A stretch of 33,266 nucleotides of DNA from Nitrospirales bacterium. Its GTDB lineage: Bacteria; Nitrospirota; Nitrospiria; Nitrospirales; UBA8639. Made by a program: the position numbers and the translations under genes. The stretch lies in contig BQIW01000050.1 of the NCBI GenBank assembly GCA_021604105.1, positions 1 through 33,266 on the forward strand. Reading direction: 5' to 3'. This document shows positions 1,201-18,938 of this stretch, in pieces. The notes under the pieces are model-generated. The model had not been told where the DNA came from, ran no database searches, and was given only the letters and a program-made list of their open reading frames with translations. The stretch's first letter is position 1; every line of letters begins with the position of its first letter.

Positions 1201-2298
1201 ATGGTCGACTCGGTCGCTGAACATATTTTCGCCTTGGACGACGAAGATTGGGGGGTGCGCGAAGACGCAGCGGTAGCACTCGGACGTCTTGGCGATCCCC
1301 GTAGCGTTCAACCATTGATTCGGGCGCTTCGCGATTCGGATCGGGCCGTACGTGAGGCCGCAACTGCAGCCCTAAAATCGCTTGGGGAACCGGCCATTCT
1401 CTCATTAGGATTTTGCCTTCAGGATCTGAATCCTCAGGTTCAGGAATTGGCCGCTTGCATCCTGGCCGATATTGCCAACGAACAGGTATTAGATCCTTTG
1501 TTGTCCGCGGCATTAAGTCCTAACTGGATTGTGCGAATGTCGGCAGCCAAAGGCCTTGGTCGGATTCAGAATTCCCAGGCCATTGATACGTTAATTTTGC
1601 TTCTCCAAGATAAAGTGCCGGCTGTGCGGGAGGAAGCAGGACGGGCCATACAAGCCATAGGCAAAACCAGCATTCCAAAATTATTGGAAAAATTACAGGA
1701 TCAAAATTGGAAAATCCGGTTGCGGGCAGTGGAAGCGTTAGCCCTTTTGAAACCCCTTGAAGCAGTTGGACATCTGATGATTCTGGTTCTCGAAGATTCC
1801 GATACAGCCGTGCGCCAAGACGCCGTGCGAGCACTCGGACAGATTGGCGATCCTCGTGCCATTCCCTTGTTGCTATCATCCCTCGCCCTCGAAACGCCCT
1901 CACTCAAATTGCCCTCGATTGAAGCACTTGGGCAGCTCAGGTCTACCGAAGCCATTCCCAAATTAATTGCGCTGGTCAACTCGCTACCTCAAGAAGCCTA
2001 CGAAGATCGCATGGAAGGATGCACCGACCCTCAATATAAAGAAGAGCTTCCGCCCCTGGAAGCCGCTATCAGGGCCCTGGGGAAGATTCGGGACCCACAG
2101 GCTATTCCGGCCCTTATTCAAGCACTGCAGAGTACCCTCTTGCGGACAGAAGCTGCTGAAGCGTTAACTCAGTTTGGCCAGACAGCCGTGAATCCATTGT
2201 TAAATCTCTTAAAAACGACCAAAAATGACAATCTCCGTCGTCATGTGTTGGAATCCCTTTCTCACCTTGGCTGGAGGCCCGGGCAGATACGTATCTAG
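1201..2298 (+). CDS. HEAT-repeat protein 1 (365 aa)
   Basis: The whole protein is a run of about eleven 30-31-residue HEAT-like (PBS-lyase type) repeats. Typical units read VREDAAVALGRLGDPRSVQPL near the N terminus and VRQDAVRALGQIGDPRAIPLL in the middle. Such repeats stack into a solenoid used as a protein-binding scaffold; a few family members are phycobilin lyases, but no such pathway is visible here. A less regular insert lies around residues 255-285. There is no signal peptide or membrane segment, so it is probably cytoplasmic. It ends in an LGWxPG motif shared with the third HEAT gene. The ATG at 1201 has no strong ribosome binding site, and a stop at 1153 prevents a longer form. Confidence 0.85.
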   Translation: MVDSVAEHIFALDDEDWGVREDAAVALGRLGDPRSVQPLIRALRDSDRAVREAATAALKSLGEPAILSLGFCLQDLNPQVQELAACILADIANEQVLDPLLSAALSPNWIVRMSAAKGLGRIQNSQAIDTLILLLQDKVPAVREEAGRAIQAIGKTSIPKLLEKLQDQNWKIRLRAVEALALLKPLEAVGHLMILVLEDSDTAVRQDAVRALGQIGDPRAIPLLLSSLALETPSLKLPSIEALGQLRSTEAIPKLIALVNSLPQEAYEDRMEGCTDPQYKEELPPLEAAIRALGKIRDPQAIPALIQALQSTLLRTEAAEALTQFGQTAVNPLLNLLKTTKNDNLRRHVLESLSHLGWRPGQIRI

Positions 2299-2313
2299 CT
2301 GAAAGACCTGAGG

Positions 2314-3405
2314 ATGCCGAAAGAAACATTCGAAACCATCATTTCTGAACTGGATCATGAGGAAGATTGGCGCCGAATGCGGGCCACTTCCACCTGCATG
2401 AAAGGTGGGCCCAAGGCCGTTGAGGCCATAATTCACGCCATGGCGACGGGCTCTTCTCATTACAAGGTGGAAGCGGCAAAAATGTTAGCCCGCCTACGGG
2501 ACCCCCGAGCCGGCCAGGCCCTCGCTCATGTCCTGAAGGATGAGGATGAACAGGTGAAACAGGCAGCCGTAGATGCCTTGGAGCATATGGCTGGCATTTT
2601 GGATGAAGCCACCGCGTCTGCACTCTTAGAATATTTACGCGACGATACTCTCCAGGAAAAAGTTACGGCCCTACTCGGTGTGATTCCCACTTCTATCGGC
2701 CCTCTGTCGGAACGGCTCAAAGATCCCGATCCAGCCATCCGTCTCCGGGCCGCAGAGATTCTCGCCCATCTCCTTGACCCTCGATCCGCCAATGCGTTTG
2801 TTGATGCCATGTCCGACCCCGATCTTCGTGACCTGGCCACCGATACCTTGCGCAAATTGGGTGCGATTCGGGAACGTGTCGATCAAACGATGGACGACCT
2901 GCGGGCGGTGGACGAATCAGAGTTGAAAGAAGGCGTCCGGCAGGAAGCGGTTATTCAACTGCATCGTATCGGACGGCCAATCGTTGAAATTCTGATTGAA
3001 TACCTGGAGGACGATGACTGGGTGGTTCGGGAAGCCGCCGCTGACACCCTTGGCAAAATTGGCGATATTCGGGCAGTGGAACCGCTCATGATCCGGCTCC
3101 GGTCTGACAAAGACACGGGGGTGAAAGAACACGCGCTGAAATCCCTTGGGCTCATCGGCGATCCACGGCCGGTAGAATTATTCATTGAATCCATTCCCAT
3201 TCGCCCTCTTCGCATACTCGCTGTCGAAGCTCTGGAGAAAGTGAAAGATATCGAGGTCCTGAGACCCCATATGGAATTATTTGCCCGATTAAAAACCGAC
3301 CGGGACGGCTTGATTTCCTATAATTCCGGGGTCATCCTTGACAAACTCGAGGCTGCCACTGCACAAATGAACATGGCTGAAGAAACCTGGGCCGCAAAGG
3401 AATAA
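2314..3405 (+). CDS. HEAT-repeat protein 2 (363 aa)
   Basis: This second HEAT-repeat protein starts 15 bp after the stop of the first, which implies one transcript. Clear units include VEAAKMLARLRDPRAGQAL near residue 55 and VREAAADTLGKIGDIRAVEPL near 235. The middle part, around residues 195-215, is acidic and less repeat-like. The C-terminal 40 residues leave the repeat pattern and end in a charged helix with several methionines. No catalytic motif, signal peptide or membrane helix is visible. Its role is probably scaffolding of a partner; the partner cannot be read from the sequence. It is less similar to its neighbours than expected from a recent tandem duplication. Confidence 0.85.
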   Translation: MPKETFETIISELDHEEDWRRMRATSTCMKGGPKAVEAIIHAMATGSSHYKVEAAKMLARLRDPRAGQALAHVLKDEDEQVKQAAVDALEHMAGILDEATASALLEYLRDDTLQEKVTALLGVIPTSIGPLSERLKDPDPAIRLRAAEILAHLLDPRSANAFVDAMSDPDLRDLATDTLRKLGAIRERVDQTMDDLRAVDESELKEGVRQEAVIQLHRIGRPIVEILIEYLEDDDWVVREAAADTLGKIGDIRAVEPLMIRLRSDKDTGVKEHALKSLGLIGDPRPVELFIESIPIRPLRILAVEALEKVKDIEVLRPHMELFARLKTDRDGLISYNSGVILDKLEAATAQMNMAEETWAAKE

Positions 3406-3419
3406 AGGAGTGAAGACCC

Positions 3420-4190
3420 ATGACGGAAGGTAACCCCGTAGACCCCTTATTGTCGGCGCTTCGCGATGACAATGAAGCCCTTCGAAATCATGCCGCTTCC
3501 AGACTAGGAGAAGCCGGTTCAGAAGCCATTCCCAAGCTGATAAATATGTTCCTGGAAGACGATTGTGTAGTACGTGAGGCAGCCACGAGTGCGTTGGTTC
3601 AAATTGGTGAACCGGCCGTTGACCCCCTGATCGAGGCGTTAAAAGATGATGAGGAATGGTCTGTTCGGGAACAGGCAGCCACCGCTCTCGGGAAACTCCG
3701 TGCGATTAAATCGGTGGAACCCCTGATACAAGCCCTCCGTCATGACAAAGATGGAGGTGTCCGCACCGCCGCCATCTGGGCATTGGAACGCATTGGTCAT
3801 CCTGATGCAGTTCCCGCCCTGGTGGATGCCTTGATGGACGCAACTCTTCGTGAGGATGCTGCAAGAGTGTTAAAAAAATTGGGAGATTCCCGCGCGACTG
3901 ATGCTCTAGTGGAGGGCTTACAAGCCTCGAACTGGATTGTGCGCCGGCACGCGGCAGAGGCGTTAGGGAAAATTGGCGATCCTCGCAGCTTGGATCCTTT
4001 AATTCATGCTCTGGCGGATGAGGACTGGTTGGTCCGTCGGAATGCCGCAGAATCACTGGCTCGCTTCAAGGACAGTCGCGCCATCGACCCCTTGGTTCCC
4101 TTGCTCGAAGATGAAAATGAAATGGTTCGGGACACTGCCGAAGGTGCCCTGGCAAGCTTGGGATGGACACCCGGATCTTCCCGTTCATAG
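3420..4190 (+). CDS. HEAT-repeat protein 3 (256 aa)
   Basis: The protein consists of about eight very regular HEAT-like units, for example VREQAATALGKLRAIKSVEPL near residue 82 and VRRHAAEALGKIGDPRSLDPL near 175. It has almost no non-repeat sequence and ends in LGWTPG, matching the end of the first HEAT protein. It begins 14 bp after the second HEAT gene, with AAAGGAG upstream of the ATG. It is predicted to be a soluble cytoplasmic solenoid. Because it is the most regular of the four, it may bind the same partner as gene 1, but that is inference. Confidence 0.87.
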   Translation: MTEGNPVDPLLSALRDDNEALRNHAASRLGEAGSEAIPKLINMFLEDDCVVREAATSALVQIGEPAVDPLIEALKDDEEWSVREQAATALGKLRAIKSVEPLIQALRHDKDGGVRTAAIWALERIGHPDAVPALVDALMDATLREDAARVLKKLGDSRATDALVEGLQASNWIVRRHAAEALGKIGDPRSLDPLIHALADEDWLVRRNAAESLARFKDSRAIDPLVPLLEDENEMVRDTAEGALASLGWTPGSSRS

Positions 4191-4247
4191 AAGCAATCAA
4201 TGCTCTTTTCGCTTTCTTTTAACTATTACGAAGGACACTGACACATT

Positions 4248-4916
4248 ATGGCTAATGAAGCACCCGCAAAACTCATTTCGATCGGGCCCAAGAGTGGCAC
4301 GAAAAAGGATGGGTTTAATCTTGTGACTGAAAACGTCACGGCGATCCATCTTGAGACTAAACAAATTGAGGTCGAACTCTTGGCGTATGATGGAAAGACC
4401 GTTCTTATGGATGTCGGTGAAGAGGCTGCCGAAGACCTCCAAAAGATTAAAATCGGGGACGGGGCGACTCTTCGCGTCGTTGAAGAAGATGGCAAACGTA
4501 TCGTCAAGAGTTTTCGCATCCGCTCTAAAGACCCCAATATTCAACGGGCCGATGCGGCACTGCAAGACCTTACCGATACGCACTGGCTTAATCGCAAGCA
4601 TGCCATTGAAGTGCTTGGCGAACTCCGGGTGGAAGCAGCCGTCAAGCCGTTGGTGGACATGCTCGGTGATGAAGTCGGTGATGTCCGGCAGCGAGCCTAT
4701 GAGGCCTTGATCAAAATAGGAGCACCCTGTGTCGCTGAGGTGATACCCCTTCTGGTCTCCGAAGATGACGACCTTCGACAATCGGCAACTGAAATTCTTC
4801 GCAAGATTGGAAAACCCGCAGTTGAGCCTTTGGCCCAGGCATTAGGCGAGGCGGATGAAAGACTCCAAAAACGCATCATGAAGGTGTTGGACCGCATGGG
4901 GTATAAACGTAAATAG
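4248..4916 (+). CDS. HEAT-repeat protein 4 with N-terminal beta domain (222 aa)
   Basis: This is the last gene of the HEAT row, 57 bp after the third, with GAAGGA upstream. It differs from the others: residues 1-90 look like a beta-rich domain (alternating segments such as VELLAYDGKTVLMDV and ATLRVVEEDGKRIVKSF), followed by about four HEAT units from residue 105 to the C terminus. The N-terminal domain is not one I can name; its short strands resemble small barrel folds. No signal peptide is seen. A domain plus solenoid architecture suggests an adaptor, with the repeats as docking surface. Confidence 0.83.
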   Translation: MANEAPAKLISIGPKSGTKKDGFNLVTENVTAIHLETKQIEVELLAYDGKTVLMDVGEEAAEDLQKIKIGDGATLRVVEEDGKRIVKSFRIRSKDPNIQRADAALQDLTDTHWLNRKHAIEVLGELRVEAAVKPLVDMLGDEVGDVRQRAYEALIKIGAPCVAEVIPLLVSEDDDLRQSATEILRKIGKPAVEPLAQALGEADERLQKRIMKVLDRMGYKRK

Positions 4917-6536: not shown

Positions 6537-6611
6537 GCGGGAATAGCTCAGTGGTAGAGCATCGCCTTGCCAAGGCGAGGGTCGGGGGTTCAAATCCCCT
6601 TTCCCGCTCCA
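6537..6611 (+). tRNA. tRNA-Gly (anticodon GCC)
   Basis: A complete cloverleaf can be drawn. The acceptor arm GCGGGAA pairs with TTCCCGC, the D arm reads GCTCAGTGGTAGAGC, and the anticodon stem TCGCC/GGCGA flanks the loop TTGCCAA with anticodon GCC. The T arm contains GGTTCAAAT. The discriminator base is T and CCA is encoded (6609-6611). The gene follows a near-consensus promoter. Its 3' portion from the anticodon loop onward is repeated at 18892-18938. Confidence 0.95.
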
Positions 6612-6613
6612 AT
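6567..6613 (+). repeat. Putative attachment site, copy inside tRNA-Gly
   Basis: These 47 bases, from the anticodon loop to just after CCA, recur at 18892-18938 with one mismatch (G6575 against A18900). The last 38 bases (6576-6613) are identical. Tyrosine recombinases commonly cross over at the anticodon loop and leave such a repeat, with the intact tRNA on one side. Confidence 0.8.
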
Positions 6614-6836
6614 TCTCCAAAAGTCTTTCAAGTCTGATTGCGCCTGTCAGGCTTTCCATCTGGAGTTTCATCCGACAATTTCCTCACTGTTTCCCTGATT
6701 TTCCGCTCCTATTCTGGCCACCCATGCGAAAAATTGGCTGCCATTCATGGCATCTTGTGATCAAGTAAAGCCTGCTTCACTTCGTAATTGACCCCAAGGT
6801 GGGGAAGCCATGTGGCAAGGATCTGTCGGGTACTGT

Positions 6837-7306
6837 TCAATGAGCGGCATCATAGCTAAGAAGGTGGTCGGACACCAACAACCGTAGATCCCTGCATTCC
6901 TCCTTTACGAATCGACGAAAAATGCTTTTGACCACCGGATGAATGCGAAGACGTCACAAGAGAATGTCTAGGGAATCTCCATCGTGATCAACTGCACGCC
7001 AGAAATACTGAGGTCGACCGTAACTGGCCATAAACAATTCATCGATATGCCACATGTCACCCAACAGTTTTTGCCGCTTTCTTTACTTGCCAACATTGTC
7101 AAATCAAAACTTCTGCCACCCTTTGTGAACATTTTCGTAGATGACCGTGATTCCGCGCTCGGCAAGCAATACTTTCGCTTCACGGAAGCTGAGGTAAAAC
7201 CGGTGTTAAGCCAAAGAACATTGCTGATGATGGCGGCTGGAAAACGGTAACCCCGGTAGCTGCTTGATGGGGTTTTCGTCCCCCCAGGCTGTCTAATTCC
7301 AGCCAA
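6837..7306 (-). pseudogene. Decayed IS6-family transposase
   Basis: Read on the minus strand, pieces of an IS6 (IS26/IS240-like) DDE transposase appear in shifting frames. From 7306 the first frame gives YRGYRFPAAIISNVLWL. A frameshift follows, then SFREAKVLLAERGITVIYEN, the usual N-terminal helical region. After another shift comes DMWHIDELFMASYG and then FWRAVDHDGDSLDIL, which contain the first two catalytic aspartates. A stop follows at once, then a degraded RRFVKEECRDLRLLVSDHLL segment ending with a second stop. The C-terminal glutamate region cannot be recognised, and no terminal inverted repeats were found. The gene cannot encode an active enzyme and marks older mobile DNA at the island edge. 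Confidence 0.8.
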
Positions 7307-7897
7307 TTTAATAATATCTCCCTATCTGTACTACATCTTCCTTATCGCAAAGTGTATCGTTTCAGATAACAACCGTATCTCTTTAGATACGAATCGCATC
7401 TCCTCAAAAAGCTCTTTTCCAACAACCATGAAGACGAAAGGAAGCAACCAATACTTCAACTATGTCCTAGGAGTCACCCTCTACTCAAGTAAGAAGCAAG
7501 TCTTCGATTTTCGGACTTTGAAAGCATCTTGATCGACAAGGATTTTTTGCTCCCCAGTTGTCCTTAATATCTGGACTGAAAATTATATCCCTGCCATAGG
7601 GAGAAGCGGCATTCTTCTTGCTCGTTTTAAAGTATCAAGTTCACATTTGTCAGAAGGTTTCCGTCAAACTCGCATCTACTTGCTAGGAATGGGGATCAGA
7701 GAGAGACAGTCATTCCTGTCATTCCCGTCCTTTCTGTAATTGGATGGGAAAAATTCATGACGTAGACCAATAAAGGATCCTTCCAATATTTAAGCCATGT
7801 ACCTGAAAACCACTCTTTAAAAAACACATGATCCCTCCGCAGGTCCTCCTCATCTCTATATATTTAAAAAAAGAGCCTATAAACAAGGATTATTGTG
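7307..7897. other. Gene-free A+T-rich island segment
   Basis: I find no coding sequence here on either strand. A small dyad, CGTATC/GATACG, lies near 7373-7390, and short related words around it suggest a binding site or a degenerate repeat. The final 40 bases are strongly A+T rich and lead into the AAGGA ribosome binding site of the SGNH hydrolase gene, so the promoter is probably here, though no good -35/-10 pair stands out. A missing integrase gene could once have occupied this segment. Confidence 0.5.
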
Positions 7898-9487
7898 ATG
7901 CACCGAATGGTTTGCATTGGGGGAAGTGTCACGCAGGGTATGAAAAACTTTGCGGTGTTTGAGCCCCAATTGTCCTACCCTGCAATCATTGCTCATGAAA
8001 TGGGGCTTTCCGATGATGAATTTCGCTATCCTCATTTTCCGGGTAAGGGCAGCTTGCCTTTGAATATCGAGTACCTTCTTCGAAAAATGGATCAGACCTT
8101 CGGGGAAAACGTCAATCTCCTGGAGCTTCCCTTCGCGGCGATACTGTTGCGTGAATGGATGGACGACATAGAAGACTATTGGGAAAGAGGACCTGGAATC
8201 ACACCATTAAATTATGACGGGGATTTCCACAACCTCGCCGTGTGGGGTTTTGAGCTTCAGGATTCCTACCAAATCACAGCGAAATTATGCCAACAGGTCA
8301 TTTCACAAAATAAACCCACGGATAATTGGTTCACCCAAATTCCCGAACATGCGATGTTGTCGATCGCTCGGCGGGTCTTGAATCCCAGCCACTCGTCCGA
8401 CCCCAAAAAACTCAAGGCTAGCCAGGTCCAAAGAGCGGCAGAAATGGCGCGAAGGGACGGAATTGAAAATTTGATAATTAATTTGGGCGCAAACAATGTG
8501 CTGATGAGTGTAGTTGACCTCGTGTATGAGGAAAGCGACGAATGGACGATTAAACAGAAAAACCCAGAGTGTCGGACCGAGGCACATCATCCCAATAAAA
8601 AGCACGTTACGGTTTATACCCCTGCGCATTATGCACAATTGCTCGATCGGCTCATGACCAAAGTGGAACGGATGAATTCAGGGAAAGGCGTACAGAGGGT
8701 ATTTTGGGGCAATGTACCCCCGGTAACGGTTTTTCCCGTGTGCCACGGAGTCGGTGGCCGCATGGAATCGGCAGAGGGTCTCAGCTCTCCGTATGGCGAC
8801 AGAGACAACCAACATCCTGATTGGTATCGCCGCTACTTTAAATTTTATACTCGACCCTGGATACCGGGTACTCGCTTTCGTTCGGACGAAGATCCCCACT
8901 TGACAGGAAAAGAAATTATTCAGATTGACACTACCATCGCGAGATACAACAAATTACTGAGAAATAAGGTCGATCAACACAACAAGCAACGCCGCGACGC
9001 AGGCAGGAGTGAGGACTGGTTTATTGTTGACTTTCACAAGCTCCTTGATGAGCTGGCTTTCAGGCGGTATCAGGAAGATCCGACTGTTCCGCGGCCCGAT
9101 GAATGGCATCCACATAAAATCCCGCCAGAGTATGAAAAATTACAGCTCGATACCAGGTTTTTACGGGCCCACAACGGACAACGTATAGCTGGAGGATTTT
9201 TCAGTCTGGATGGCGTACACACGACCACAGTCGGAAGCGGGCTGGTGGCTCAGGAAGTCATCGACGAAATGCAACGAAGGGGGGTGGAATTCCACAAATG
9301 GACTAATGGAACGAAAACTCAACGCAATGCCCCGATAACGATTGACTATAGCCGGCTGATTCGACTGGATACATTAATCACCAAGCTTCCTTCCACAATG
9401 GACGACCTTTGGGACAAACTCGAAGACGGGGATGAACTGATAGATCTGTTTACACGAGCATTCAGGGGTATGGCCAAGCATTTCTGA
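7898..9487 (+). CDS. SGNH/GDSL-like hydrolase, cytosolic (529 aa)
   Basis: SGNH enzymes hydrolyse esters of lipids, aryl alcohols or acylated sugars. Block I is at the extreme N terminus, CIGGSVTQG, with S10 as nucleophile. Block II is NLAVWG (G117). Block III reads NLGANN (195-200), with Asn in place of the usual Asp of GxND. Block V is SLDGVHTTTVG, giving D438 and H441. At 529 residues it is about twice the size of a minimal SGNH enzyme, the extra mass lying between blocks III and V. There is no signal peptide, so it should act in the cytoplasm. The ATG at 7898 sits eight bases after AAGGA; a GTG three bases earlier is possible. It opens the island's gene row, 121 bp before the next start. 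Substrate unknown; lipid ester is a guess from its neighbours. Confidence 0.75.
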   Translation: MHRMVCIGGSVTQGMKNFAVFEPQLSYPAIIAHEMGLSDDEFRYPHFPGKGSLPLNIEYLLRKMDQTFGENVNLLELPFAAILLREWMDDIEDYWERGPGITPLNYDGDFHNLAVWGFELQDSYQITAKLCQQVISQNKPTDNWFTQIPEHAMLSIARRVLNPSHSSDPKKLKASQVQRAAEMARRDGIENLIINLGANNVLMSVVDLVYEESDEWTIKQKNPECRTEAHHPNKKHVTVYTPAHYAQLLDRLMTKVERMNSGKGVQRVFWGNVPPVTVFPVCHGVGGRMESAEGLSSPYGDRDNQHPDWYRRYFKFYTRPWIPGTRFRSDEDPHLTGKEIIQIDTTIARYNKLLRNKVDQHNKQRRDAGRSEDWFIVDFHKLLDELAFRRYQEDPTVPRPDEWHPHKIPPEYEKLQLDTRFLRAHNGQRIAGGFFSLDGVHTTTVGSGLVAQEVIDEMQRRGVEFHKWTNGTKTQRNAPITIDYSRLIRLDTLITKLPSTMDDLWDKLEDGDELIDLFTRAFRGMAKHF

Positions 9488-9608
9488 ATATTTCACCAGG
9501 TGCATTGATCTTCCTCATCGGAACAAAAAGGAAATATTGACTGCAGCCACAATAACCCGAACCAGTTTTTCGTCGGCTTTCATTTTCAGTCAAAAAGGAG
9601 ACTTAAAG

Positions 9609-10535
9609 ATGGAGGGCACTAATGGAAATCACGAAAGAGGAACAAGGAGACAATTGCCTATAAAAGGAGAAAGGAAAAATATTACCGAACTTACGGCTGT
9701 TGCGCGGATTAGGCCTGGAACGTATCCGGATGAGCGACTTCCACATGAATACAAAGACCTAATCTTTCAAAGTACCATGAACTTTAAGGATACGTTACCC
9801 GGTCTTCCAAAAAACTTTCTCACCGGTTTTGAGGATAGGCTGGGACAATTCGCCGACGCCCTGGCAAACGAAATATTTGAATCAGCCCATCCTTCGATAG
9901 ACCCTGAAAAATTGGTGGCTCATCATTTCGAAACGCTTCGAGTCCCTTCAAAATACGCCGATCCGTTCAAAGAATTTCTTATCGAATTCGTTGAAAAGTT
10001 CTTGAAACAGCGTCGGCCAATGACGTGGTTGGATCACCTCAAATGGTTTGGAAATTGGGCTCATGAGTATAGGCAAGACGCCATTAGAAAGATGTCAACC
10101 ATCCATTACGCACGATGGTTTATTGTGGACGAACATACTCTTCCTGGACTTGATGGTGCGCATATTGTGTTTACAAGTAATTACGACGGGGAGTTGGCAG
10201 CCTATCTGGAGGATTTCGCCAATGTGGATGAAGGTCCGCTCAATCTTGTATTTGGCCATTGCATTGGTTGGCCTGGTGCCAGACCCGCCAATGGCTTCAT
10301 AAAGTATGTAAAAGAGCATGAATATCCAGCCTTAATATTTTATGCCAATTATCCATTGGCCACGGTCGGCGAAGTGCGAAGGGCACTCGATTGGAAAAAC
10401 AAAACCCAAAATTTCATAGAAAAGGATTTGCCAAAATTGCTCAAGCGGAAGTCCGGAAAATGGGAGGCGGCCGCAAGAAAAACTTTAAGCAGGTACCTCA
10501 ACGAACTGGCAAAACCAACCTCCAACCGCGGATAA
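9609..10535 (+). CDS. Ferredoxin-fold protein, DyP companion (308 aa)
   Basis: I cannot give a precise function. Two segments resemble the two halves of a dimeric alpha/beta-barrel protein: ITELTAVARIRPG at residues 25-37, and IHYARWFIVDE at 165-175 followed by IVFTSNYDGELAAYLEDF (186-203) and GHCIGWPGA. From memory, such tandem modules occur in bacterial proteins encoded near or fused to heme peroxidases; that should be checked. DyP peroxidases share this fold class. There is no signal peptide or membrane segment. The frame is open from 9537, but the ATG at 9609 is preceded by AAAAAGGAG and is chosen. It ends 80 bp before the DyP-P450 start. Possible roles are heme handling, a non-catalytic partner, or an enzyme on the same substrate. 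Confidence 0.72.
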   Translation: MEGTNGNHERGTRRQLPIKGERKNITELTAVARIRPGTYPDERLPHEYKDLIFQSTMNFKDTLPGLPKNFLTGFEDRLGQFADALANEIFESAHPSIDPEKLVAHHFETLRVPSKYADPFKEFLIEFVEKFLKQRRPMTWLDHLKWFGNWAHEYRQDAIRKMSTIHYARWFIVDEHTLPGLDGAHIVFTSNYDGELAAYLEDFANVDEGPLNLVFGHCIGWPGARPANGFIKYVKEHEYPALIFYANYPLATVGEVRRALDWKNKTQNFIEKDLPKLLKRKSGKWEAAARKTLSRYLNELAKPTSNRG

Positions 10536-10615
10536 GGGTCAGAGGCTACTCTTGTAGTCTCAAAATAATTAAAGAGTCTGACAAGCGTCGAGGAGTCTTT
10601 CACCAAGGGAGACCG

Positions 10616-13600
10616 ATGATGAGTATGCCACCTATAAATGAACTAAAAAAAAATCTAATCGATATTCAAGGAAATGTTCTACGCGGTTATGGCCTTCGAT
10701 ATGCTACCTATCGTTTCTATAACGTAGGCGACCGGGAACAAGGAAGGAATTGGCTCAAGGAAATTCTCAAACCGAAAACCGGCCTTCTAAAAGATTTAAA
10801 AATTACTACTTCCGAATTCTGGCCAAAGGGTAAAAAACCCCCCTTTACTCTCAATATTGCCTACAGCCACCTTGGCCTGACAGCGTTGGACCTAGACACA
10901 GAGGTCCTAGCCACATTTCCCGAAGAATTTCGAGATGGCATGCGGAAACGGGCCGTCACAATATTGGGAGACGAACCCAAAGCGAATAAAAAGAAGGCAA
11001 GTACGAATGAAAATCATGAGACTATCCCAAAGCATTGGAAAGCTTCTTTTTTAGAAGAATCCGACACTGAGAAAATTCATTTTCTGGTAATAATTACCGC
11101 TGAGACGGAAGACTTACAAAAAAAAGGTGTGACTTGCCTTGAACAAACGATTTCCAAATTTGACAGGGTTAAATTCTTATTTGCTCTTGAGGGGAAACGA
11201 CGCCCACAACCCAATCATAATAAAGAGCACTTCGGCTTTACAGACGGGATCAGTCAACCTTACCTGGAGGGGACAGAATCCCTGTTCGAGGGCAAATCAG
11301 GCAACCCCGGTCAGGGGACCCCAGAGAAAAATGGCAAATGGCAGAACCTCAAGCCGGGGGAGTTTATTTTGGGTTATGAGGACGAGTTTGGGGAAGTCGC
11401 ACTGGTTCCCTCGCATTATGATTTACGAAAAAATGGAACGTACTTAGTTCTGCGAGTCCTTGAGGAAGATGTGGCGGCTTTTAGAAAATTCCTCAAGGCT
11501 ACAGCTAAAAAGCTTTGGCCTACGGCTTATCAGGAAGATCCTGATCATTTTGAAGGCCTAATTGCAGCTAAGATTATGGGAAGATGGCCAAGCGGCTGCC
11601 CCGTGATACATTCACCTTCAAAAGATAATACCCGCATTGCCACCGATCCCCAGAAAAACAACAACTTTCTTTACAAACGAGAAGATCCAGAAGGCAAAAA
11701 GTGTCCGCTTGGCGCGCACATCCGACGAGCCAATCCCAGGGACCAATTGCTCTTAACGTCGAAGGACATCTTCGATGAAAAAGAAAATTATGAATATCAC
11801 CTGAATCGGCACCGGATTATCCGTCGCGGTCTCCCCTACGGAAATGAATACAGAGGAAGACGCGGTGACGGGGGAAACCGAGGGATAATTTTCATGGCAT
11901 TCAATTCCAGCATTGGCCGGCAGTTTGAGTTTTTACAAAGGCAGTGGATCAACAATGGTGAATTTCTCGGTCTGGACAAAACAGACCGGGATCCCATTAT
12001 GGGAATGAGGGATGGGAAGAACGCAAAATTCACAGTACCTGGAGCTGAAAACCCCTTTGCACACGATCTCCAACGCTTTGTCACCGAACGAGGAGGAGAG
12101 TATTTTTTTTATCCCGGTCTCACCGCTTTGCGGAAAATTTCAGAAGGGGCGTTCGGGGCCAATCCAACCTTCCAATCTCCATCAAAGGCCCTGCCGTCTA
12201 TGGCCCATCAAGCCCTCCAATCTCAACCCAAGGCCTTACCGTCTATGGCCCATCCCTCCTTCTTATCCGAATATCAGGCATTGAAATCCATGTCGCATCC
12301 TTTCAAGGGAGCGGCAGCCAGGCAACAATTGGTGAGTAAATGGTTAATTGGAAATGCCAAGGAAATGTTTGACGAGTTACGTGAGAAGAAACCGATTTTT
12401 ATTGTGCCGCCCGTCCCTCCTCCCAAAAAACTTCCTGATTTAGGGAAGCCTTGGATAGTCATTGCGACCAAATATGACGATGTATTGGAGATTCTCCGGG
12501 ATCAAAATGAAAATTTTTCAGTGGCCCTCTATGCAAAAAAAATGGTTGACCCCCGTGGGCCTTTCGTTCTTGGCTTGGAACACCATACGGATACATACAA
12601 AAAGGAATTAAATATTATCAAAAGGGCGGTCTATCCTCAGAATGGTGATGTGGGAACAACAATCTACGATACGATTGACCGCCTAGCCAGTGAGATCACC
12701 AGCAAAATTCAGAGAAAGGGGAAAATTGATGTCATTGAGGAGTTGGTATGGCCCGTCACCCTACGCTTGAACGGGGAATTTTTTGGAGTGCCCGGGCCTG
12801 GCCCAGGTTCTGACCTGAAGATCTTCAAAAGATGGTGTCGCGACATTTATACGGATTTATTCCTCAACCTTCGTGAAAACAAGGAGTGGGAGAGACGGGC
12901 CGATATCGCAGTGACGGAGATGAATAATTATCTGGACGACCTTATTCAGGTCAGGCGAAAGGAGCTTAAAAATTCGCAGAAGGAGCCTGACACCGTTCTC
13001 GACCGTTTAATCCAAATCCAGGAAGGGGCAGGTGACAAATTCGAGGATGAAGATCCGTGGGTGGGTGTTCGCCGCAATATCTTTGGCATGGTGATTGCCG
13101 TAGTAGAGACAACTTTAAAGGCTGTGCCACGTACCATTGACCAGCTGCTCAAGCATGAAGGCATATTTCCAAAAGCCAGGGAGGCAGCGCTGGCATATTC
13201 CCATACTCAGGACCCGGGCCAATTTAAAAAATATGTGTTTGAGGCCATGAGATTTAATCCACAAAACCATGTGCTTTTTCGATTGGCTCTCAAACCCTTT
13301 ACACTGGCTGCCGGGACGGATCGCGAAACAGATTGCCCAGCACCTGCCTTGGTGTTTGCCGGGAATCTGGGAGCCATGTTCGACACCGAGAAGATCCAGG
13401 ACCCAGAGAAATTTCGTTTGGACAGGCCGGATGACAACTACTTATTTTTTGGGTACGAACATCATAAATGTCTGGGAGAGCAGATCAGCCGAATACAAAT
13501 CCCTCTTCTGATCAAACATGTGGTGACCTTGAGTAATCTCCGTAGACCTGAGGCTGGTGATCAATTCGACCATTTGGACCTGCGACCGGAGCACTTCTTG

Positions 13601-13621
13601 CTGGAATTCGATGCTTCCTAA
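10616..13621 (+). CDS. DyP-type peroxidase / cytochrome P450 fusion (1001 aa)
   Basis: Two heme enzymes lie in one chain. Residues 10-510 are a DyP-type peroxidase: DIQGNVLRGYG (16-26), HFGFTDGISQP with D210 of the GxxDG motif, CPLGAHIRRANPRD with proximal H368, IIRRGLPYG with distal arginines R403/R404, QFEFLQRQW, and RGGEYFFYPGLTALR (492-506). Residues 518-562 are three 15-residue repeats acting as a linker. Residues 605-1001 are a P450: I-helix AVVETT with E831/T832, the ExxR motif E876-R879, and heme loop FFGYEHHKCLG with ligand C952. All key residues are kept, so both halves could be active. No reductase or ferredoxin gene is near; the P450 may use peroxide or a peroxidase product. The open frame begins at 10391, but GGGAG before the ATG pair at 10616/10619 fits, and the earlier part overlaps the previous gene. 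There is no signal peptide. Confidence 0.93.
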   Translation: MMSMPPINELKKNLIDIQGNVLRGYGLRYATYRFYNVGDREQGRNWLKEILKPKTGLLKDLKITTSEFWPKGKKPPFTLNIAYSHLGLTALDLDTEVLATFPEEFRDGMRKRAVTILGDEPKANKKKASTNENHETIPKHWKASFLEESDTEKIHFLVIITAETEDLQKKGVTCLEQTISKFDRVKFLFALEGKRRPQPNHNKEHFGFTDGISQPYLEGTESLFEGKSGNPGQGTPEKNGKWQNLKPGEFILGYEDEFGEVALVPSHYDLRKNGTYLVLRVLEEDVAAFRKFLKATAKKLWPTAYQEDPDHFEGLIAAKIMGRWPSGCPVIHSPSKDNTRIATDPQKNNNFLYKREDPEGKKCPLGAHIRRANPRDQLLLTSKDIFDEKENYEYHLNRHRIIRRGLPYGNEYRGRRGDGGNRGIIFMAFNSSIGRQFEFLQRQWINNGEFLGLDKTDRDPIMGMRDGKNAKFTVPGAENPFAHDLQRFVTERGGEYFFYPGLTALRKISEGAFGANPTFQSPSKALPSMAHQALQSQPKALPSMAHPSFLSEYQALKSMSHPFKGAAARQQLVSKWLIGNAKEMFDELREKKPIFIVPPVPPPKKLPDLGKPWIVIATKYDDVLEILRDQNENFSVALYAKKMVDPRGPFVLGLEHHTDTYKKELNIIKRAVYPQNGDVGTTIYDTIDRLASEITSKIQRKGKIDVIEELVWPVTLRLNGEFFGVPGPGPGSDLKIFKRWCRDIYTDLFLNLRENKEWERRADIAVTEMNNYLDDLIQVRRKELKNSQKEPDTVLDRLIQIQEGAGDKFEDEDPWVGVRRNIFGMVIAVVETTLKAVPRTIDQLLKHEGIFPKAREAALAYSHTQDPGQFKKYVFEAMRFNPQNHVLFRLALKPFTLAAGTDRETDCPAPALVFAGNLGAMFDTEKIQDPEKFRLDRPDDNYLFFGYEHHKCLGEQISRIQIPLLIKHVVTLSNLRRPEAGDQFDHLDLRPEHFLLEFDAS
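12167..12301 (+). repeat. Three 45-bp tandem repeats in the fusion linker
   Basis: Three consecutive 15-codon units encode TFQSPSKALPSMAHQ, ALQSQPKALPSMAHP and SFLSEYQALKSMSHP (residues 518-562). The first two are nearly identical at the core KALPSMAH; the third has diverged. They lie exactly between the last DyP motif and the first P450 segment, so they look like a flexible spacer that grew by in-frame duplication. Confidence 0.85.
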
Positions 13622-13836
13622 AGTGCTTTTGATATAGGACTGAAACCAGACAGGTCTGAAAACAATCGAAATTTTGCTGTTTAAAAAATAAGGAGGTGGA
13701 TCAAGAATAGCGCTCAATGCGGAAAAAGCGGCAATGGTATTTCTCAATTAGGCTAATTTACCTGATTCGTCGAGGATGTCTCATAACCTCACTACTTCGG
13801 CAGGATTGTGAGGCATTTAGCCGCGGGGGAATAATA

Positions 13837-15186
13837 ATGAAGGCTTTAAAAATTTCAGCCATCTCTCTCCTTCTATTTTTTCCATCGGTCACCTTGGTAT
13901 ACGGGGAAGCATTCCGTAACCTGCATCAGGGCACGGCTGCAGCAGGACAAGGTGATGCATTTGCCGCTCAGGCCGACGATCCCTCCGCGCTTTATTATAA
14001 TCCGGCAGGAATGACCCAGTTAGAAAGCGTACAACTTTATACCGGCCTACTCTTAGTTGGTGGGAATTATCATTATACAAGTCCGGCAGGACAGAAATTC
14101 GATGGCACGCTCGATGGCACCATAGCCTCCCCTCCTCCCTCCTACTTTTATCTCACTGCCAACCTCAACCAGCTCAATATTGACGTTCTGAAAGACTTCA
14201 CGTTGGGCATTGGCCTCAACAGTCCTTTTGGTTTGCTTATTCGCTGGCCTAACGATATCCCCTTTTCCGAAATTGACGTGTTTGGCACTCTTCCGTTGGT
14301 CGATATTAAGCCAACTGTGGCATATAAGGTGAACGACTATTTTTCGATCGGAGGCGGATTGGATATTTACACGTTTGCCAACTTTTTGGGGGAAGGACAA
14401 CTTGAGGTTCAGGCTTCTGGCCGAGGAACCAACTTTCCCTCTGGTGCTCTCGTAGAGGTAAATGGAACCGATACCGCTGTTGGTTTTAATCTGGGTGGAC
14501 TTCTAACCCTCTGGCGAACTGGAGGAAAACCCCGATTAAACTTCGCCTTTGTCTATCGAAGCCCGACGACTCTTCGATTAAAAGGGGAGCTTCAACTTAA
14601 TGGAACCAAATTGAATGATACGGTCATAGACCTCAAGCTTCCACAAATTTTCAATTGGGGAGTAGCCCTCTGGCCTCTCCGAAACGAAACCAGCGAATGG
14701 AAAGTCGAGGTTGATCTGGACTATGTGGACTGGGGTTCATTCAACAATACGGACGTTCACAATGCAGATACCGGCGAGGTCCAATTGCCTCAACCGAGAA
14801 ATTGGAAAAGTGTTTTTGTGATCAAAGTCGGAACGGAATATAAATGGCTTCACCTTTCCTCCATGCCTAACTGGGAAATGGCGTTACGCGCCGGATACAT
14901 ACGATCAGAAACCCCTGTCCCCAATTCAACATTCGAGCCACTGGTCCCGGATGCCGATTTTAACGGGTTTTCGATCGGCATTGGAATGATTTGCAAAGGC
15001 CATGCACGCTTTCTTGGCATTGTCCCCTGCCAAAATTCTATTACGAAGAGCATCGGTTTGGATTTGACTTATGTGAACCAGCTGTATGAGTCCCGCACAA
15101 TTAAAAACAATCCTCAGGCCCTAGTGAATGGCAAATATGACACCACCCTGCATGCCGGAGGAATTGGCGTGCGAATGACATTCTGA
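13837..15186 (+). CDS. FadL/TodX-family outer-membrane channel (449 aa)
   Basis: FadL proteins are 14-stranded barrels with a periplasmic hatch that pass long-chain fatty acids or aromatic hydrocarbons across the outer membrane. A signal peptide spans residues 1-23 (MKALKISAISLLLFFPSVTL, then VYG), with cleavage likely before EAF. The family signature follows: GTAAAGQGDAFAAQADDPSA and then LYYNPAGMTQLE. The remainder alternates polar and aromatic residues as in beta strands and ends in the aromatic IGVRMTF, a proper barrel C terminus. Length is typical. The frame is open from 13717, but the ATG at 13837 after GGGGGA gives the signal peptide at the true N terminus. It lies 215 bp after the DyP-P450 gene; a strong AAGGAGG at 13690 in that gap has no start at suitable spacing. 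The cargo is probably hydrophobic. Confidence 0.9.
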   Translation: MKALKISAISLLLFFPSVTLVYGEAFRNLHQGTAAAGQGDAFAAQADDPSALYYNPAGMTQLESVQLYTGLLLVGGNYHYTSPAGQKFDGTLDGTIASPPPSYFYLTANLNQLNIDVLKDFTLGIGLNSPFGLLIRWPNDIPFSEIDVFGTLPLVDIKPTVAYKVNDYFSIGGGLDIYTFANFLGEGQLEVQASGRGTNFPSGALVEVNGTDTAVGFNLGGLLTLWRTGGKPRLNFAFVYRSPTTLRLKGELQLNGTKLNDTVIDLKLPQIFNWGVALWPLRNETSEWKVEVDLDYVDWGSFNNTDVHNADTGEVQLPQPRNWKSVFVIKVGTEYKWLHLSSMPNWEMALRAGYIRSETPVPNSTFEPLVPDADFNGFSIGIGMICKGHARFLGIVPCQNSITKSIGLDLTYVNQLYESRTIKNNPQALVNGKYDTTLHAGGIGVRMTF

Positions 15187-15296
15187 ACAAATCAACGCCT
15201 GAAATATTTCTCAATCACATGACAAGTTTTGCATCCATATTCGGAGACTGAATCACCCGAATCCTGATCGATGTTGATCAGTTCGTCGATAACGTT

Positions 15297-18200
15297 ATGA
15301 CTGACTTTCTCCCCATAGAACATACCATTCTTGAAAGACCTTTCATGCTTTTTCGCCCATTCGGCAAAGAAGCAAGCGGAGAACCTATTAACGATATGAC
15401 AGGGGTGTCCATCCGCGAGAACGTCAAATACCTTGAAGAGTTTGTGAGTCGTGAACGGGGGGCAGAAGCCGGCACGATCGTAGCAAAGGAATTGGTAAGG
15501 CGCTTAAACGAACGGATACCCGAACCGGCTTATCATGTCACCACTGAATTTTTAGCGAGGGGGTCCACAGGTTATTCAAACGAGTTTGTCGCCTATCTCG
15601 TAGAGCTCTGCATTGATTTATCCAAGGATCCTGACTTTCAAAAACACGTAGGTGAAAGGCTGGTCCCAGACTGGCTTATTAGAGTTATGCGATTTTTTTC
15701 CATCAAGCAAATTTATAACAGTGCAGACAAATGGGTGGGATTTTATAACAAGAGTTCCTATCTTCTGGAGAAGATGCAGATTTCAACCCATTCAGTCACC
15801 ATTCGTCTAAGACTCACGCCCCGAACCGAGGAGCAGTTTGGGGAATACCGTAAGTCCTGTGGCAGAATTTGGTGTAATGCCATTAAATACGGTATCGCCA
15901 GTGTTCCCAGGCGGGTGCATGATCTGCCGCCGGCGAGAATAGACGATCATGGTTGTATCGCAAAAGGCCAGGATTTTTGTGAGTGGAGATTTACGTGGAA
16001 CGAACCTCGCCGAACGTGGAATCCTGCCAAACCCCTGGCCCGGTGGATTCTCAATAAGGAAATTGAGGGGCAGAAACAATCTTTTCAACAGCAATATGAT
16101 GAGTTAAATACTGCCAATGTTGAACTACAAGACAGCTCCGCCAAATTGGGAGAAAGTGCCGCAGCATTGGCGCATCGCGTTGAACAGTTAACGGCCCTTC
16201 ATGAAGCCGGAATTGCTTTCACCTCAGCCCGAGACTATAAGACCTGGGTTCAAAGAGCATTACAAGCGATCATTGCCATTCTTCATTATGATCGGGCGAT
16301 TATTAGTCGTTACGACCGGATACGTCAAGTCACGTATGATGCCCAACTGATTAATGTGTCCGAAGAAATCGCGACGTTCGCCAACTCGCTTGAGGTACCT
16401 GTCACTGACCCCCAAAGCATAGAAGGACAAGTTTTGCTTCAGCAAATGCCACTGCTTCTAGACGATATTCATCACGAATGGCATAGACTACATCCCCTTA
16501 ATCAACAACTCGTGAACCTTACTAACGCCAAATCGTTTATCTCCGTGCCATTAGTGGGGAAGGAAGGGGTGTTAGGATCCCTCACTGTGGACCGAAAAGA
16601 GGACAATTCTCTGAAACAGGATGACTTAAACCTAATGATCACGTTGGCAAATCAGCTCGCATTGGCTCTCGAAAATGTCGACGCTTACGGAGAGATTGAG
16701 GCATTAAATGTCGGATTAGAGGCAAAAGTTCAAACTCGTACAGCAGAATTGGAAGCTGCAAACGATCGTTTGAAGGAACTTGATCGCCTCAAGACCGAAT
16801 TCTTTAACAATTTGAATCATGAGCTTCGCACTCCCCTTACACTGAGTATGGGAGCGTTTAAAAGCCTATTTAAGGATGTATCCATTTCAACGGAGGCACG
16901 GCAGTGGATACTTACAGGTTACGAAAACTCTAAGCTTCTTTTGGATCTTATCAATGATTTACTAAAATTGGCCAAATTAGACAGCGGCCATTTTAAACTC
17001 CAAAAACGGTGTTTTGATCTGAATGCGTTCATTCAAGGTATAGCCTCCAACTTCAAGGCGTCGGCAAAAAAACGTCTTCACCTGAGAGAAATGACCGGAG
17101 TTATTCCGATTGAAGCGGATCCTCGGCAATTGAAAGCCGTATTCTATAATTTGTTTTCGAATGGGTTGAAATTTAGTGATCATCAGGAAGGGCAGGTCTG
17201 GGCAGCCTTAACTGTAAAGAATCGACACGTTCTCGTCGCAGTTCAGGATAATGGCATTGGAATTCCTGACGATCAACTGGAACGAATTTTCGAACGCTTC
17301 ACTCAGGTAGAGGGAAGTCCCAACCGACGCTTTGAGGGTACGGGAATCGGACTGGCTTTGGTAAAGGAAATTGTCACCCTTCATGGAGGGCAAATCACCG
17401 TACAAAGTAAACCTAATCAGGGATCGACTTTCACCATCATGCTTCCCTGTGGATCTGCCCGTGAGGATAACCTCGTGAACATTGAAGACAATGAAGGGCT
17501 GGCATTTCTTGACCCCAGTGGTTTCAAAAAACCAGAGGTTCGTTTAGAAGTGCCACTCTCTGAAACTGTAGAGGGAAAACCTTTAGTCCTTGTTGCTGAA
17601 GACAATGCCGACATGCGGAATTATTTGGTGCGGATTCTTTCCTGCCAGTACCTTGTCGAGCCCGCAGAAAACGGACTTCAGGCTTTTGAAAAGGCCAAGA
17701 TGGTTAAACCTGAGTTGATTTTGACTGATGTCATGATGCCGAAAATGAGCGGGTATGATTTGCTGCAATCTATTCGGAGCGAAAAAACTCTATGCAATAT
17801 CCCTGTCATCTTCCTTACCGCTCGCGCTGACGAGGAGGAACGACTCAAGGGACTCGAAAAGGGTGCGGACGATTATGTAATCAAACCCTTCAACGAGAAC
17901 GAGGTGTTGGCTCGAGTTCACAACCTGATACGGTCAAGAAGGCAGGAACGGGAAATCAGGGAGCTTCGCGAACAAAAACTGACTCGTTTTCTTCCTCGTC
18001 ATCTTGCTGAACTTGTCCTTGAGGGAAATGCTGACCAATTCCTCAAAGGTCATCGAAGAGAAATCACAGTGATGTTTATAGATTTGCGTGGATTTACCGC
18101 TTATGCTGAAATTGCCGACCCTGAAGATTTGCAAAATGAACTTCGAAAATATCAGTTTGAAATGGGGAGGTTGATTATCGAATTTCACGGCACATTGGAG

Positions 18201-18632
18201 AGATTCACCGGTGATTCCATCATGGTCTTTTTTAATGATCCCCTTCCTTCACCCAATCACACCGATCTGGCCTTAAACCTAGCACTTGCAATGCGGGAAC
18301 GAATGAAGCAATTGTGCAGAGATTGGGAAAATCGAGAAATTCCGCTTGGGGCCGGGATAGGAATTGCCACTGGCTTGGCCACCATGGGTCTCATGGGCTT
18401 AGAGGAACGTGTGGACTATGCTGCCATTGGTCCCGTAGTTAATTTGGCCGCACGCTTGTGTGATATAGCTAAAAATAGCCAAATTCTCATTACCCAATGC
18501 ATCTTTCACAAAATGGAGAAACGCATTATTGCCGAACCACTGGGAAACTTTCCCCTAAAGGGAATTCACCCCGCTGTTCCTGTTTATAACTTAATTGGAC
18601 TACGACCTAACTGGGAGAATCTGTCCCACTGA
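15297..18632 (+). CDS. Hybrid sensor kinase-receiver-adenylyl cyclase (1111 aa)
   Basis: Domains in order: residues 1-235, a V4R-like ligand-sensing region ending in the typical HGCIAKGQDFCEWRF with C220 and C228 (also C188, C193); a coiled coil about 258-298; GAF about 300-462; a second coiled coil 465-500; HisKA with phospho-acceptor H508 in NHELRTP; HATPase with the N box NLFSNGLKFS (618-627), DNGIGIP (651-657) and GTGIGLALVK (681-690); a receiver with D811 and K863; and a class III cyclase (920-1065) with metal-binding D929 and D973, D1040 for adenine choice, and N1049/R1053. No membrane segment is seen, so it senses a cytoplasmic ligand. It probably links that ligand to phosphorelay and cAMP. 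Position K969 of typical cyclases is arginine here, which leaves activity slightly uncertain. No clear ribosome binding site precedes the ATG at 15297. It is the last island gene and may regulate the others. Confidence 0.88.
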   Translation: MTDFLPIEHTILERPFMLFRPFGKEASGEPINDMTGVSIRENVKYLEEFVSRERGAEAGTIVAKELVRRLNERIPEPAYHVTTEFLARGSTGYSNEFVAYLVELCIDLSKDPDFQKHVGERLVPDWLIRVMRFFSIKQIYNSADKWVGFYNKSSYLLEKMQISTHSVTIRLRLTPRTEEQFGEYRKSCGRIWCNAIKYGIASVPRRVHDLPPARIDDHGCIAKGQDFCEWRFTWNEPRRTWNPAKPLARWILNKEIEGQKQSFQQQYDELNTANVELQDSSAKLGESAAALAHRVEQLTALHEAGIAFTSARDYKTWVQRALQAIIAILHYDRAIISRYDRIRQVTYDAQLINVSEEIATFANSLEVPVTDPQSIEGQVLLQQMPLLLDDIHHEWHRLHPLNQQLVNLTNAKSFISVPLVGKEGVLGSLTVDRKEDNSLKQDDLNLMITLANQLALALENVDAYGEIEALNVGLEAKVQTRTAELEAANDRLKELDRLKTEFFNNLNHELRTPLTLSMGAFKSLFKDVSISTEARQWILTGYENSKLLLDLINDLLKLAKLDSGHFKLQKRCFDLNAFIQGIASNFKASAKKRLHLREMTGVIPIEADPRQLKAVFYNLFSNGLKFSDHQEGQVWAALTVKNRHVLVAVQDNGIGIPDDQLERIFERFTQVEGSPNRRFEGTGIGLALVKEIVTLHGGQITVQSKPNQGSTFTIMLPCGSAREDNLVNIEDNEGLAFLDPSGFKKPEVRLEVPLSETVEGKPLVLVAEDNADMRNYLVRILSCQYLVEPAENGLQAFEKAKMVKPELILTDVMMPKMSGYDLLQSIRSEKTLCNIPVIFLTARADEEERLKGLEKGADDYVIKPFNENEVLARVHNLIRSRRQEREIRELREQKLTRFLPRHLAELVLEGNADQFLKGHRREITVMFIDLRGFTAYAEIADPEDLQNELRKYQFEMGRLIIEFHGTLERFTGDSIMVFFNDPLPSPNHTDLALNLALAMRERMKQLCRDWENREIPLGAGIGIATGLATMGLMGLEERVDYAAIGPVVNLAARLCDIAKNSQILITQCIFHKMEKRIIAEPLGNFPLKGIHPAVPVYNLIGLRPNWENLSH

Positions 18633-18891
18633 TTTCTGGTAGATCAATTTCCACTCAAAATTAACTAGAAATGAAATTTCTCGACAAAACAAAGCTTACC
18701 ATTGTTCTATTTCATATCTCCGGAACCGTAATATGTAAGTTCCCCTATAGCCGAGACAGGCCCATGGAGCGAGTATCATGTTGTGATTACGAACTATCAG
18801 GGAATCACTGTAGGGCTTTAAGCTATTGATTTTATGAATGGATGGGAAACCAGAAATAAAATCAAGCACTTGGGAAATTGTTCATTCCTTT
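18633..18891. other. Gene-free right end of island
   Basis: The 259 bases between the sensor gene and the partial tRNA copy hold no coding sequence, terminator or integrase fragment that I can recognise. The stretch is A+T rich. Short ORFs near its right end overlap the tRNA fragment and are not credible. Confidence 0.5.
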
Positions 18892-18938
18892 TTGCCAAGA
18901 CGAGGGTCGGGGGTTCAAATCCCCTTTCCCGCTCCAAT
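18892..18938 (+). repeat. Partial tRNA-Gly copy, putative second attachment site
   Basis: This copy matches 46 of 47 bases of 6567-6613 and begins at the anticodon loop. No 5' half of a tRNA precedes it, so it cannot make a functional tRNA. It would be the original 3' end displaced when the island inserted. The bases on either side are unrelated to those flanking the first copy, apart from a short CTC. Confidence 0.85.

Follow-up and report, generated by a model that had tools for sequence, protein, structure and literature searches.

A mobile Nitrospirales gene module combining a DyP–P450 fusion with a new companion protein family, an outer-membrane channel and a soluble sensor

Among the described systems closest to the gene module reported here are the fungal dioxygenase–cytochrome P450 fusions (5,8-LDS/Ppo, DOX-AOS and DOX-EAS), single chains that begin with a haem peroxidase-type domain and end with a P450. 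PMC13049297 gives (N/T/I)QxQ as the I-helix motif of 8-LDS, EAS and 8-AOS, and HxC as kept in the Cys loop. Further parallels are offered by stand-alone DyP-type peroxidases, by the V4R phenol sensors DmpR, MopR and PoxR and the kinase PcrS, and by the Pseudomonas aeruginosa oleate-diol synthase (PA2077/PA2078), a bacterial two-haem-enzyme fatty-acid route that, according to PMC4496055, uses periplasmic c-type dihaem peroxidases and neither DyP nor P450, and is a functional parallel only. We analysed a 33,266-nucleotide stretch of a Nitrospirales bacterium (GenBank assembly GCA_021604105.1, contig BQIW01000050.1, positions 1 to 33,266 of the forward strand; hereafter the window), in which consecutive genes encode an SGNH-type hydrolase, a companion protein, a fusion of a DyP-type peroxidase with a P450, a FadL/TodX-type channel and a soluble sensor. 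The five genes form one module, four of them in an order conserved far beyond chance. On balance, and with confidence only a little above even, we read it as a mobile, self-regulated (self-sensing) module oxidising one hydrophobic, probably ester-linked compound.

The preliminary description had proposed five genes on one strand, and all five were confirmed as open reading frames (ORFs). Starts were chosen by ribosome-binding-like sequences and, for the fusion, also by alignment with relatives, giving 7898, 9609, 10616, 13837 and 15297 as the best positions. The first gene encodes a hydrolase that is SGNH-type by motif (7898..9487), with no apparent signal peptide and not conserved in related modules, and the second the companion protein (COMP; 9609..10535), with an ABM-like alpha+beta fold core and a lineage-specific helical insertion. 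The DyP–P450 fusion follows (10616..13621; DyP at about 10661-12160, P450 at about 12218-13618); its ORF is readable from 10391, and the alignment with relatives favours a start at about 10616. The channel gene (13837..15186) has a signal-like N-terminus and matched the FadL/Toluene_X profile PF03349 at 136.9 bits against a cut-off of 29.7. The last gene (15297..18632) encodes a soluble protein with a V4R-like domain up to about 16016, followed by GAF (16248-16670), histidine kinase (16791-17450), receiver (17586-17918) and class III cyclase (18057-18563) domains, the last matching PF00211 at 61.4 bits against 21.9. All five lie on the plus strand.

We then searched 196 genomes sampled from the order with the fusion protein. 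Any match at all was found in 29, and full-length DyP–P450 fusions in six (the window, G035, G061, G158, G083 and G136). In all five non-window loci, the genes for the companion, the DyP–P450, FadL and a histidine kinase occur in identical order and orientation, and an all-against-all ORF comparison of the six regions found these four genes alone common to all six loci, other genes being common to two to four. The preliminary description had named conserved co-occurrence of the fusion with SGNH, FadL and the cyclase as a check; the companion, the fusion, FadL and the kinase indeed stayed together in 5/5, whereas the SGNH gene and the cyclase did not. Since the four genes co-occur in all five loci and another hydrolase replaces the SGNH protein in four of them, the five genes constitute one module. 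That they are chance neighbours was rejected in view of the shared order (5/5) and of nothing else being common to the six loci. The same conservation bears on the idea of a module against peroxide or haem stress that merely carries unrelated genes along, which we consider very improbable: DyP and catalase-like proteins do handle peroxide, as is generally known, but FadL and a dedicated soluble sensor stand in fixed order in 5/5 fusions, with a hydrolase in 4/5, and the P450 and the companion are not stress proteins. Adjoining the module of G061, we observed a TOTE conflict-system primase-helicase gene (L022:1270-3807).

The module is also horizontally mobile. The island claimed in the preliminary description was borne out and delimited by flanking repeats, a shift in G+C content and empty sites in three genomes of the same genus. 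Its integration site is a tRNA-Gly (GCC) gene (6537..6611, plus strand) detected by ARAGORN and intact at the same place in L138-L142. The 3' 47 bp of this gene are repeated with 46/47 identities, BLAST placing the attL-like left repeat, the 3' part of the tRNA gene, at 6567..6613 and the attR-like right repeat, a copy of the tRNA 3' end, at 18892..18938, both on the plus strand. The island thus delimited (6614..18891, unstranded, 12.3 kb) has a G+C content of 46.0%, as compared with 50.5% outside. The site is empty in G043, G053 and G030, where the sequence passes from the left flank across the tRNA directly to the right flank, and the 12.3 kb are therefore an insertion. The part before the module (6614-7890) looks degenerate, with a single small frame of >100 residues that has no Pfam match. 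No integrase was seen in the window island, and the five-gene module is therefore the entire intact cargo. At the same tRNA-Gly, G058 (L141) holds a different island, unrelated to this one and about 7.9 kb long, which has perfect repeats, an adjoining phage-type integrase and a Schlafen/AlbA_2 gene; this tRNA-Gly is an integration hotspot in the genus.

We next consider the companion, which is a new family and the most novel piece of the system. It has no match in Pfam or NCBIfam. Scanning named genomes with a companion alignment gave 36 loci from 79 pattern matches, a sample biased by the search patterns, chiefly [TS]IHYARW[VF]; L051-L053 duplicate G035, G061 and G158. A protein-only scan of genome contigs with P0003 gave no match, but the companion alignment did succeed. 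A DyP is adjacent to the companion or in one chain with it at every one of the 36 loci, and a P450 is also adjacent or in-chain at 30. The six without a P450 are L057, L059, L070, L081, L082 and L086, the sequences of L081, L082 and L086 starting at or within the module; companion–DyP pairs without a P450 exist, for example, on a Nostoc plasmid. Linkage and fusion together establish the companion as a regular partner of DyP. Consistently, among 20 Nitrospirales regions read together with the window, each DyP fused or adjacent to a P450 has a companion (11/11), and the six DyPs without a companion have no fused or adjacent P450.

Among these companion-free Nitrospirales DyPs, a conserved ThiF-YcaO-nitroreductase-DyP cassette was observed in L033, L037, L038, L039 and L040 and partially in L018 and L019. 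By Pfam on L038 and comparison, all four genes are present in 5/6 of the companion-free DyP regions read, the exception being L034, and the cassette resembles a peptide-modifying (azole) cluster with an added DyP.

The companion occurs in several architectures. The Nitrospirales order is companion, DyP–P450, FadL and kinase; a Methylomirabilota locus (L055) has hydrolase, companion and DyP–P450, where the contig ends; and an alphaproteobacterial metagenome-assembled genome (L056) has companion, DyP, P450 and an LCAT-like gene. Single P450–companion–DyP chains of 1395-2014 residues are found at 19 alphaproteobacterial loci (L060-L068, L071-L075, L077-L080 and L085), that of L078 as two overlapping frames. 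Their nearest upstream gene encodes a TPR protein in all nine scanned (L060, L061, L062, L063, L066, L067, L068, L071 and L075), and four of these proteins (L061, L063, L068 and L071) contain a class III cyclase domain, which interestingly recalls the cyclase of the window sensor. A double companion with DyP and a GST-like–P450 is found in Bacteroidia, Glaciecola, Polyangia and Gemmataceae (L058, L076, L083 and L084); these P450 proteins have about 700 residues, the GST_C match being measured in L076 and read by eye in L058, L083 and L084. In L076 a serine hydrolase, Omp85, double companion, DyP and GST-P450 stand in a row, again combining a hydrolase and an outer-membrane protein. Finally, a catalase-like gene, double companion and DyP are grouped in L059 and in Nitrospira L031, L035 and L036.

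Two further observations concern the neighbours of such modules. In Nitrospira, cytochrome c genes lie directly upstream of the double companion-DyP-catalase-like genes (L031:6235-11607, also L035 and L036), and one of them, in L031, gave weak RoxA/RoxB and dihaem peroxidase matches. On plasmid pMPPM03 of Methylorubrum populi (L091), genes for a ferredoxin, an FAD oxidoreductase, a P450, a catalase family protein, a hypothetical protein and a DyP are consecutive; the hypothetical protein is related to the companion by tblastn and was not recovered by the companion profiles.

Structural models suggest how the companion is folded. For the L056 protein (163 residues), a monomer model built with 34 sequences (mean predicted local distance difference test score (pLDDT) 88.5) has an alpha+beta fold like that of the dimeric ABM barrels and matched ABM-type proteins, polyketide cyclases, NIPSNAP and IsdI in Foldseek, the best match having an E-value of 9.7e-4 and a probability of 1.00, and the target template-modelling score being about 0.6-0.7 for several; no ABM sequence profile of Pfam or NCBIfam matched. 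The model of the window companion (pLDDT 78.6), which has a helical insertion, gave no Foldseek match at E<=0.001; VIA-align returned a list filled by helix matches (Z up to 6.2), and the search for relatives among PDB sequences gave chance matches only, mostly CheY. DyP falls in the same broad fold group as the ABM-like companion, and a mixed companion–DyP assembly is therefore a natural guess. A fold nearest to ABM proteins and polyketide cyclases would also suit a pathway that makes a hydrophobic secondary metabolite or an antibiotic-like compound, with the companion as an ABM-type cyclase or monooxygenase, to which the mobile, patchy island (6/196 genomes) and the plasmid and giant-fusion versions lend some weight. 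However, we regard this as doubtful, since the shared set contains no synthase (PKS (polyketide synthase), NRPS (non-ribosomal peptide synthetase) or terpene), so that a ready-made substrate would be needed, and no export system was seen.

Turning to the fusion, profiles and motifs together establish, at the level of sequence, the families of the main parts and their catalytic residues. DyP_N (PF21105) matched at 52.1 bits against a cut-off of 27.5 and TIGR01413 at 102.5 against 100.5, and PF20628 fell slightly below its cut-off (19.8 against 20). The P450 part matched PF00067 at 35.1 bits against 22.8 and carries an HKCLG Cys loop and EAMR (ExxR). The DyP motifs are FGFTDG, GAHIRRANPRD and RHRIIRRG, which we take to hold the GxxDG Asp, the proximal His and the Arg in their usual roles. 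Against PDB sequences, phmmer gave E-values down to 5e-55 over residues 87-585, with 8re3 as the best match; the DyP domain and its three features (GxxDG, proximal His, Arg) are shared with this entry, with the D-type DyPs (7anv) and with Alr1585 (5c2i), which in these entries are stand-alone enzymes lacking a P450. In an alignment of 49 DyP rows, three of them duplicates, the proximal His is present in 49/49, the distal Asp in 48/49 (Glu in L066) and the Arg in 48/49 (L083 unaligned). The P450 Cys and ExxR are present in all 39 rows that reach them, two further rows being cut at contig ends. The I-helix of the window P450 reads VVETTLKA, and an acid–Thr pair is found here in 5/6 Nitrospirales fusions (Asp–Pro in G136), in 5/5 split Nitrospira P450s and in L056, L069, L076 and L084. 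The acid is lost in L058 and L083, and the 19/19 alphaproteobacterial chains have Pro–Thr. From these differences between lineages, the P450 of the window seems capable of oxygen activation, and those of the alphaproteobacterial chains may depend on peroxide or hydroperoxide.

The fusion thus has the one-chain layout of the fungal dioxygenase–P450 proteins, with a haem peroxidase-type domain before a P450, but its N-terminal domain is DyP rather than an animal-type peroxidase/COX. The fungal system is not known to include the companion, FadL or the kinase. Searching the genome for an animal-type peroxidase gave no match and was uninformative, as 14 controls were likewise unmatched. Searches limited to the open-access literature turned up no description of a DyP–P450 fusion or cluster, and this fusion of two haem enzymes is apparently undescribed; record annotations of the plasmid copies vary among 'Dyp-type peroxidase', 'cytochrome P450' and 'hypothetical protein'.

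The hydrolase was assigned to SGNH from the motifs GGSVTQG, GANN and DGVH, which we take to be blocks I, III and V. No SGNH/GDSL profile of Pfam or NCBIfam matched; the only Pfam hit was ApbE, below its cut-off, and no match was obtained among PDB sequences. As a fixed part of the module, the SGNH protein was rejected, with its gene found in 1/196 genomes. Instead, a mutually homologous alpha/beta hydrolase unrelated to SGNH lies upstream of the companion in G061, G158, G083 and G136, the two scanned giving sub-cut-off Pfam matches to DUF676, Lipase_3 and Abhydrolase. Other hydrolases adjacent to modules are DUF676/lipase-like in one Methylomirabilota locus and LCAT-like in L056 and L027. In two split modules of Nitrospira (L028 and L029), the hydrolase position is taken by a metallophosphoesterase-like gene. 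Hydrolase families thus replace one another in this slot, the function of which is probably that of an esterase.

The LCAT-like and lipase-like hydrolases, together with FadL and the GST-P450 partners, make up an oxylipin-type parts list. In an oxylipin-like lipid pathway, the hydrolase would free a fatty acid from a lipid, DyP would form or consume a fatty-acid hydroperoxide, the P450 would rearrange or hydroxylate it, and the kinase would read the product as a signal, a bacterial parallel to the fungal dioxygenase-P450 and animal COX-P450 couples with a different peroxidase fold. Catalase-like neighbours in L031, L035, L036, L059 and L091 and the RoxA/RoxB- and dihaem-peroxidase-like neighbour in L031 fit this pathway. 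Furthermore, HxCxG is conserved in the Cys loop of the fusions, the Gly four residues before the Cys being lost in at least 5/6, and PMC13049297 describes HxC as kept in the fungal enzymes, for example as HEC in 9-AOS. However, the fungal NQxQ is absent from the I-helix, which in 5/6 Nitrospirales fusions has the acid-Thr pair typical of P450s that activate O2 in the ordinary way; the N-domain is DyP and not of the animal type; and no lipoxygenase or desaturase was seen among the scanned neighbours. We consider such a pathway possible, though rather unlikely.

The sensor gives a different clue. Kinases of the relatives align only with residues 1 to about 723 of the window protein, so that the receiver and cyclase are a window addition; the cyclase, absent from 5/5 other fusions, was rejected as a fixed part of the module. 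In G035 and G136 a sigma-54-type response regulator gene, its family read from the sequence, stands beside the kinase instead. Within the N-terminal 240 residues, C193, C220 and C228 are invariant in 6/6, with D/H/E three residues before C220. The zinc ligands of DmpR are Cys151, Glu172, Cys177 and Cys185 according to PMC7264223; by comparison, the last Cys pair has the same spacing of eight and the first spacing differs by one. The window protein resembles the V4R phenol sensors in an invariant Cys...Cys-x7-Cys, a putative zinc site, and in a soluble N-terminal sensor on a signalling protein, but it lies below the Pfam cut-off and is joined to GAF-kinase (and receiver-cyclase) domains. V4R-like is a fair description rather than proven membership, and ligand sensing by this domain is plausible.

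Structurally known V4R sensors bind phenols, as PMC7264223 and PMC10715001 report, and DyPs are described as oxidising aromatics. The module could then serve uptake and degradation or detoxification of an aromatic or phenolic compound, with FadL/TodX import, cleavage of a phenolic ester, oxidation by DyP and P450 and phenol sensing by the V4R-like domain. A tyrosinase lies beside DyP in one Nitrospira locus (L026), and PDB entry titles include enzymes acting on aromatic polyketides within the ABM fold. Neither the island nor the set common to the six loci, however, contains a ring-cleavage or aromatic catabolism gene, and the LCAT-like and lipase-like enzymes suggest acyl lipids. We hold this route to be a genuine but minor possibility. 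The sequence by itself does not separate a lipid from an aromatic substrate, or synthesis from breakdown.

The uptake, ester release, oxidation and signalling named in the preliminary description remain reasonable in view of the protein families. Because interchangeable esterase-type hydrolases, an outer-membrane channel and two haem domains fit together, the reading we favour is import followed by stepwise oxidation of a hydrophobic ester. The FadL-type channel would pass the compound across the outer membrane, and a cytosolic esterase, of whichever family, would free its reactive part. The DyP haem would then make the first oxidation with H2O2 or an organic hydroperoxide, the ABM-fold companion shaping the DyP active site or handling the reactive product, and the tethered P450 would carry out a second oxidation on the same intermediate, with fusion or adjacency allowing channelling. 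Finally, the V4R-like domain of the soluble kinase may bind substrate or product and signal by phosphotransfer, in the window additionally via the receiver and cyclase.

Several points weigh against this reading. No electron donor gene (ferredoxin or reductase), as belongs to an ordinary P450 pathway, was seen in the window island, and L091 is a version that, unlike the island, has its own electron donors. Many distant modules have no adjoining FadL, hydrolase or kinase, and these three are therefore lineage accessories. G035 has no hydrolase upstream of the companion. Besides the rarity of the SGNH gene in the order, its relatives on two Nostoc plasmids and one Photobacterium plasmid are not beside DyP or companion genes. 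As for the sensor, V4R (PF02830) appeared below its cut-off in 1/6 relatives (E 0.021) and not in the window, and comparison with PDB sequences found no V4R protein.

For regulatory sites, sigma-70 promoters and terminators showed no excess over shuffles, and a window-wide scan for sigma-54 sites was no better than chance (13 against a mean of 8.5, with 9/100 shuffles reaching 13). In the 500-bp span 5' of the first module gene, four sigma-54 sites were found across six loci against 0.71 expected from the local background, with a mean of 0.47 in shuffles and 0/2000 reaching four; as this span was picked after a first look, a real signal there is suggestive only. Elsewhere in the window, four consecutive HEAT-repeat-like genes, recognised by eye, lie at 1201-4916; their proteins are 92-100% identical in L138 to L142, loci from the same genus.

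On a wider and quite speculative view, these modules would represent a widespread, undescribed bacterial class of two-haem oxidation systems, defined by a new family of DyP-bound companions with the ABM fold and with DyP and P450 convergent with the COX/dioxygenase-P450 couples. They would make oxylipin-like signals from esterase-released lipids, sense them by the V4R-like kinase and move as units on islands and plasmids.

For many DyPs, neither the role in the cell nor the natural substrate is settled. Where a DyP comes together with its own P450, a regular companion, an importer, an esterase and a sensor, that question is reduced to one testable pathway, and the sensor domain offers direct access to the ligand. 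Members of the companion family could serve as markers of biosynthetic or catabolic DyPs in several phyla. Should the chemistry prove to be lipid-based, the haem peroxidase–P450 couple of fungi and animals would have a further, independent origin in this module.

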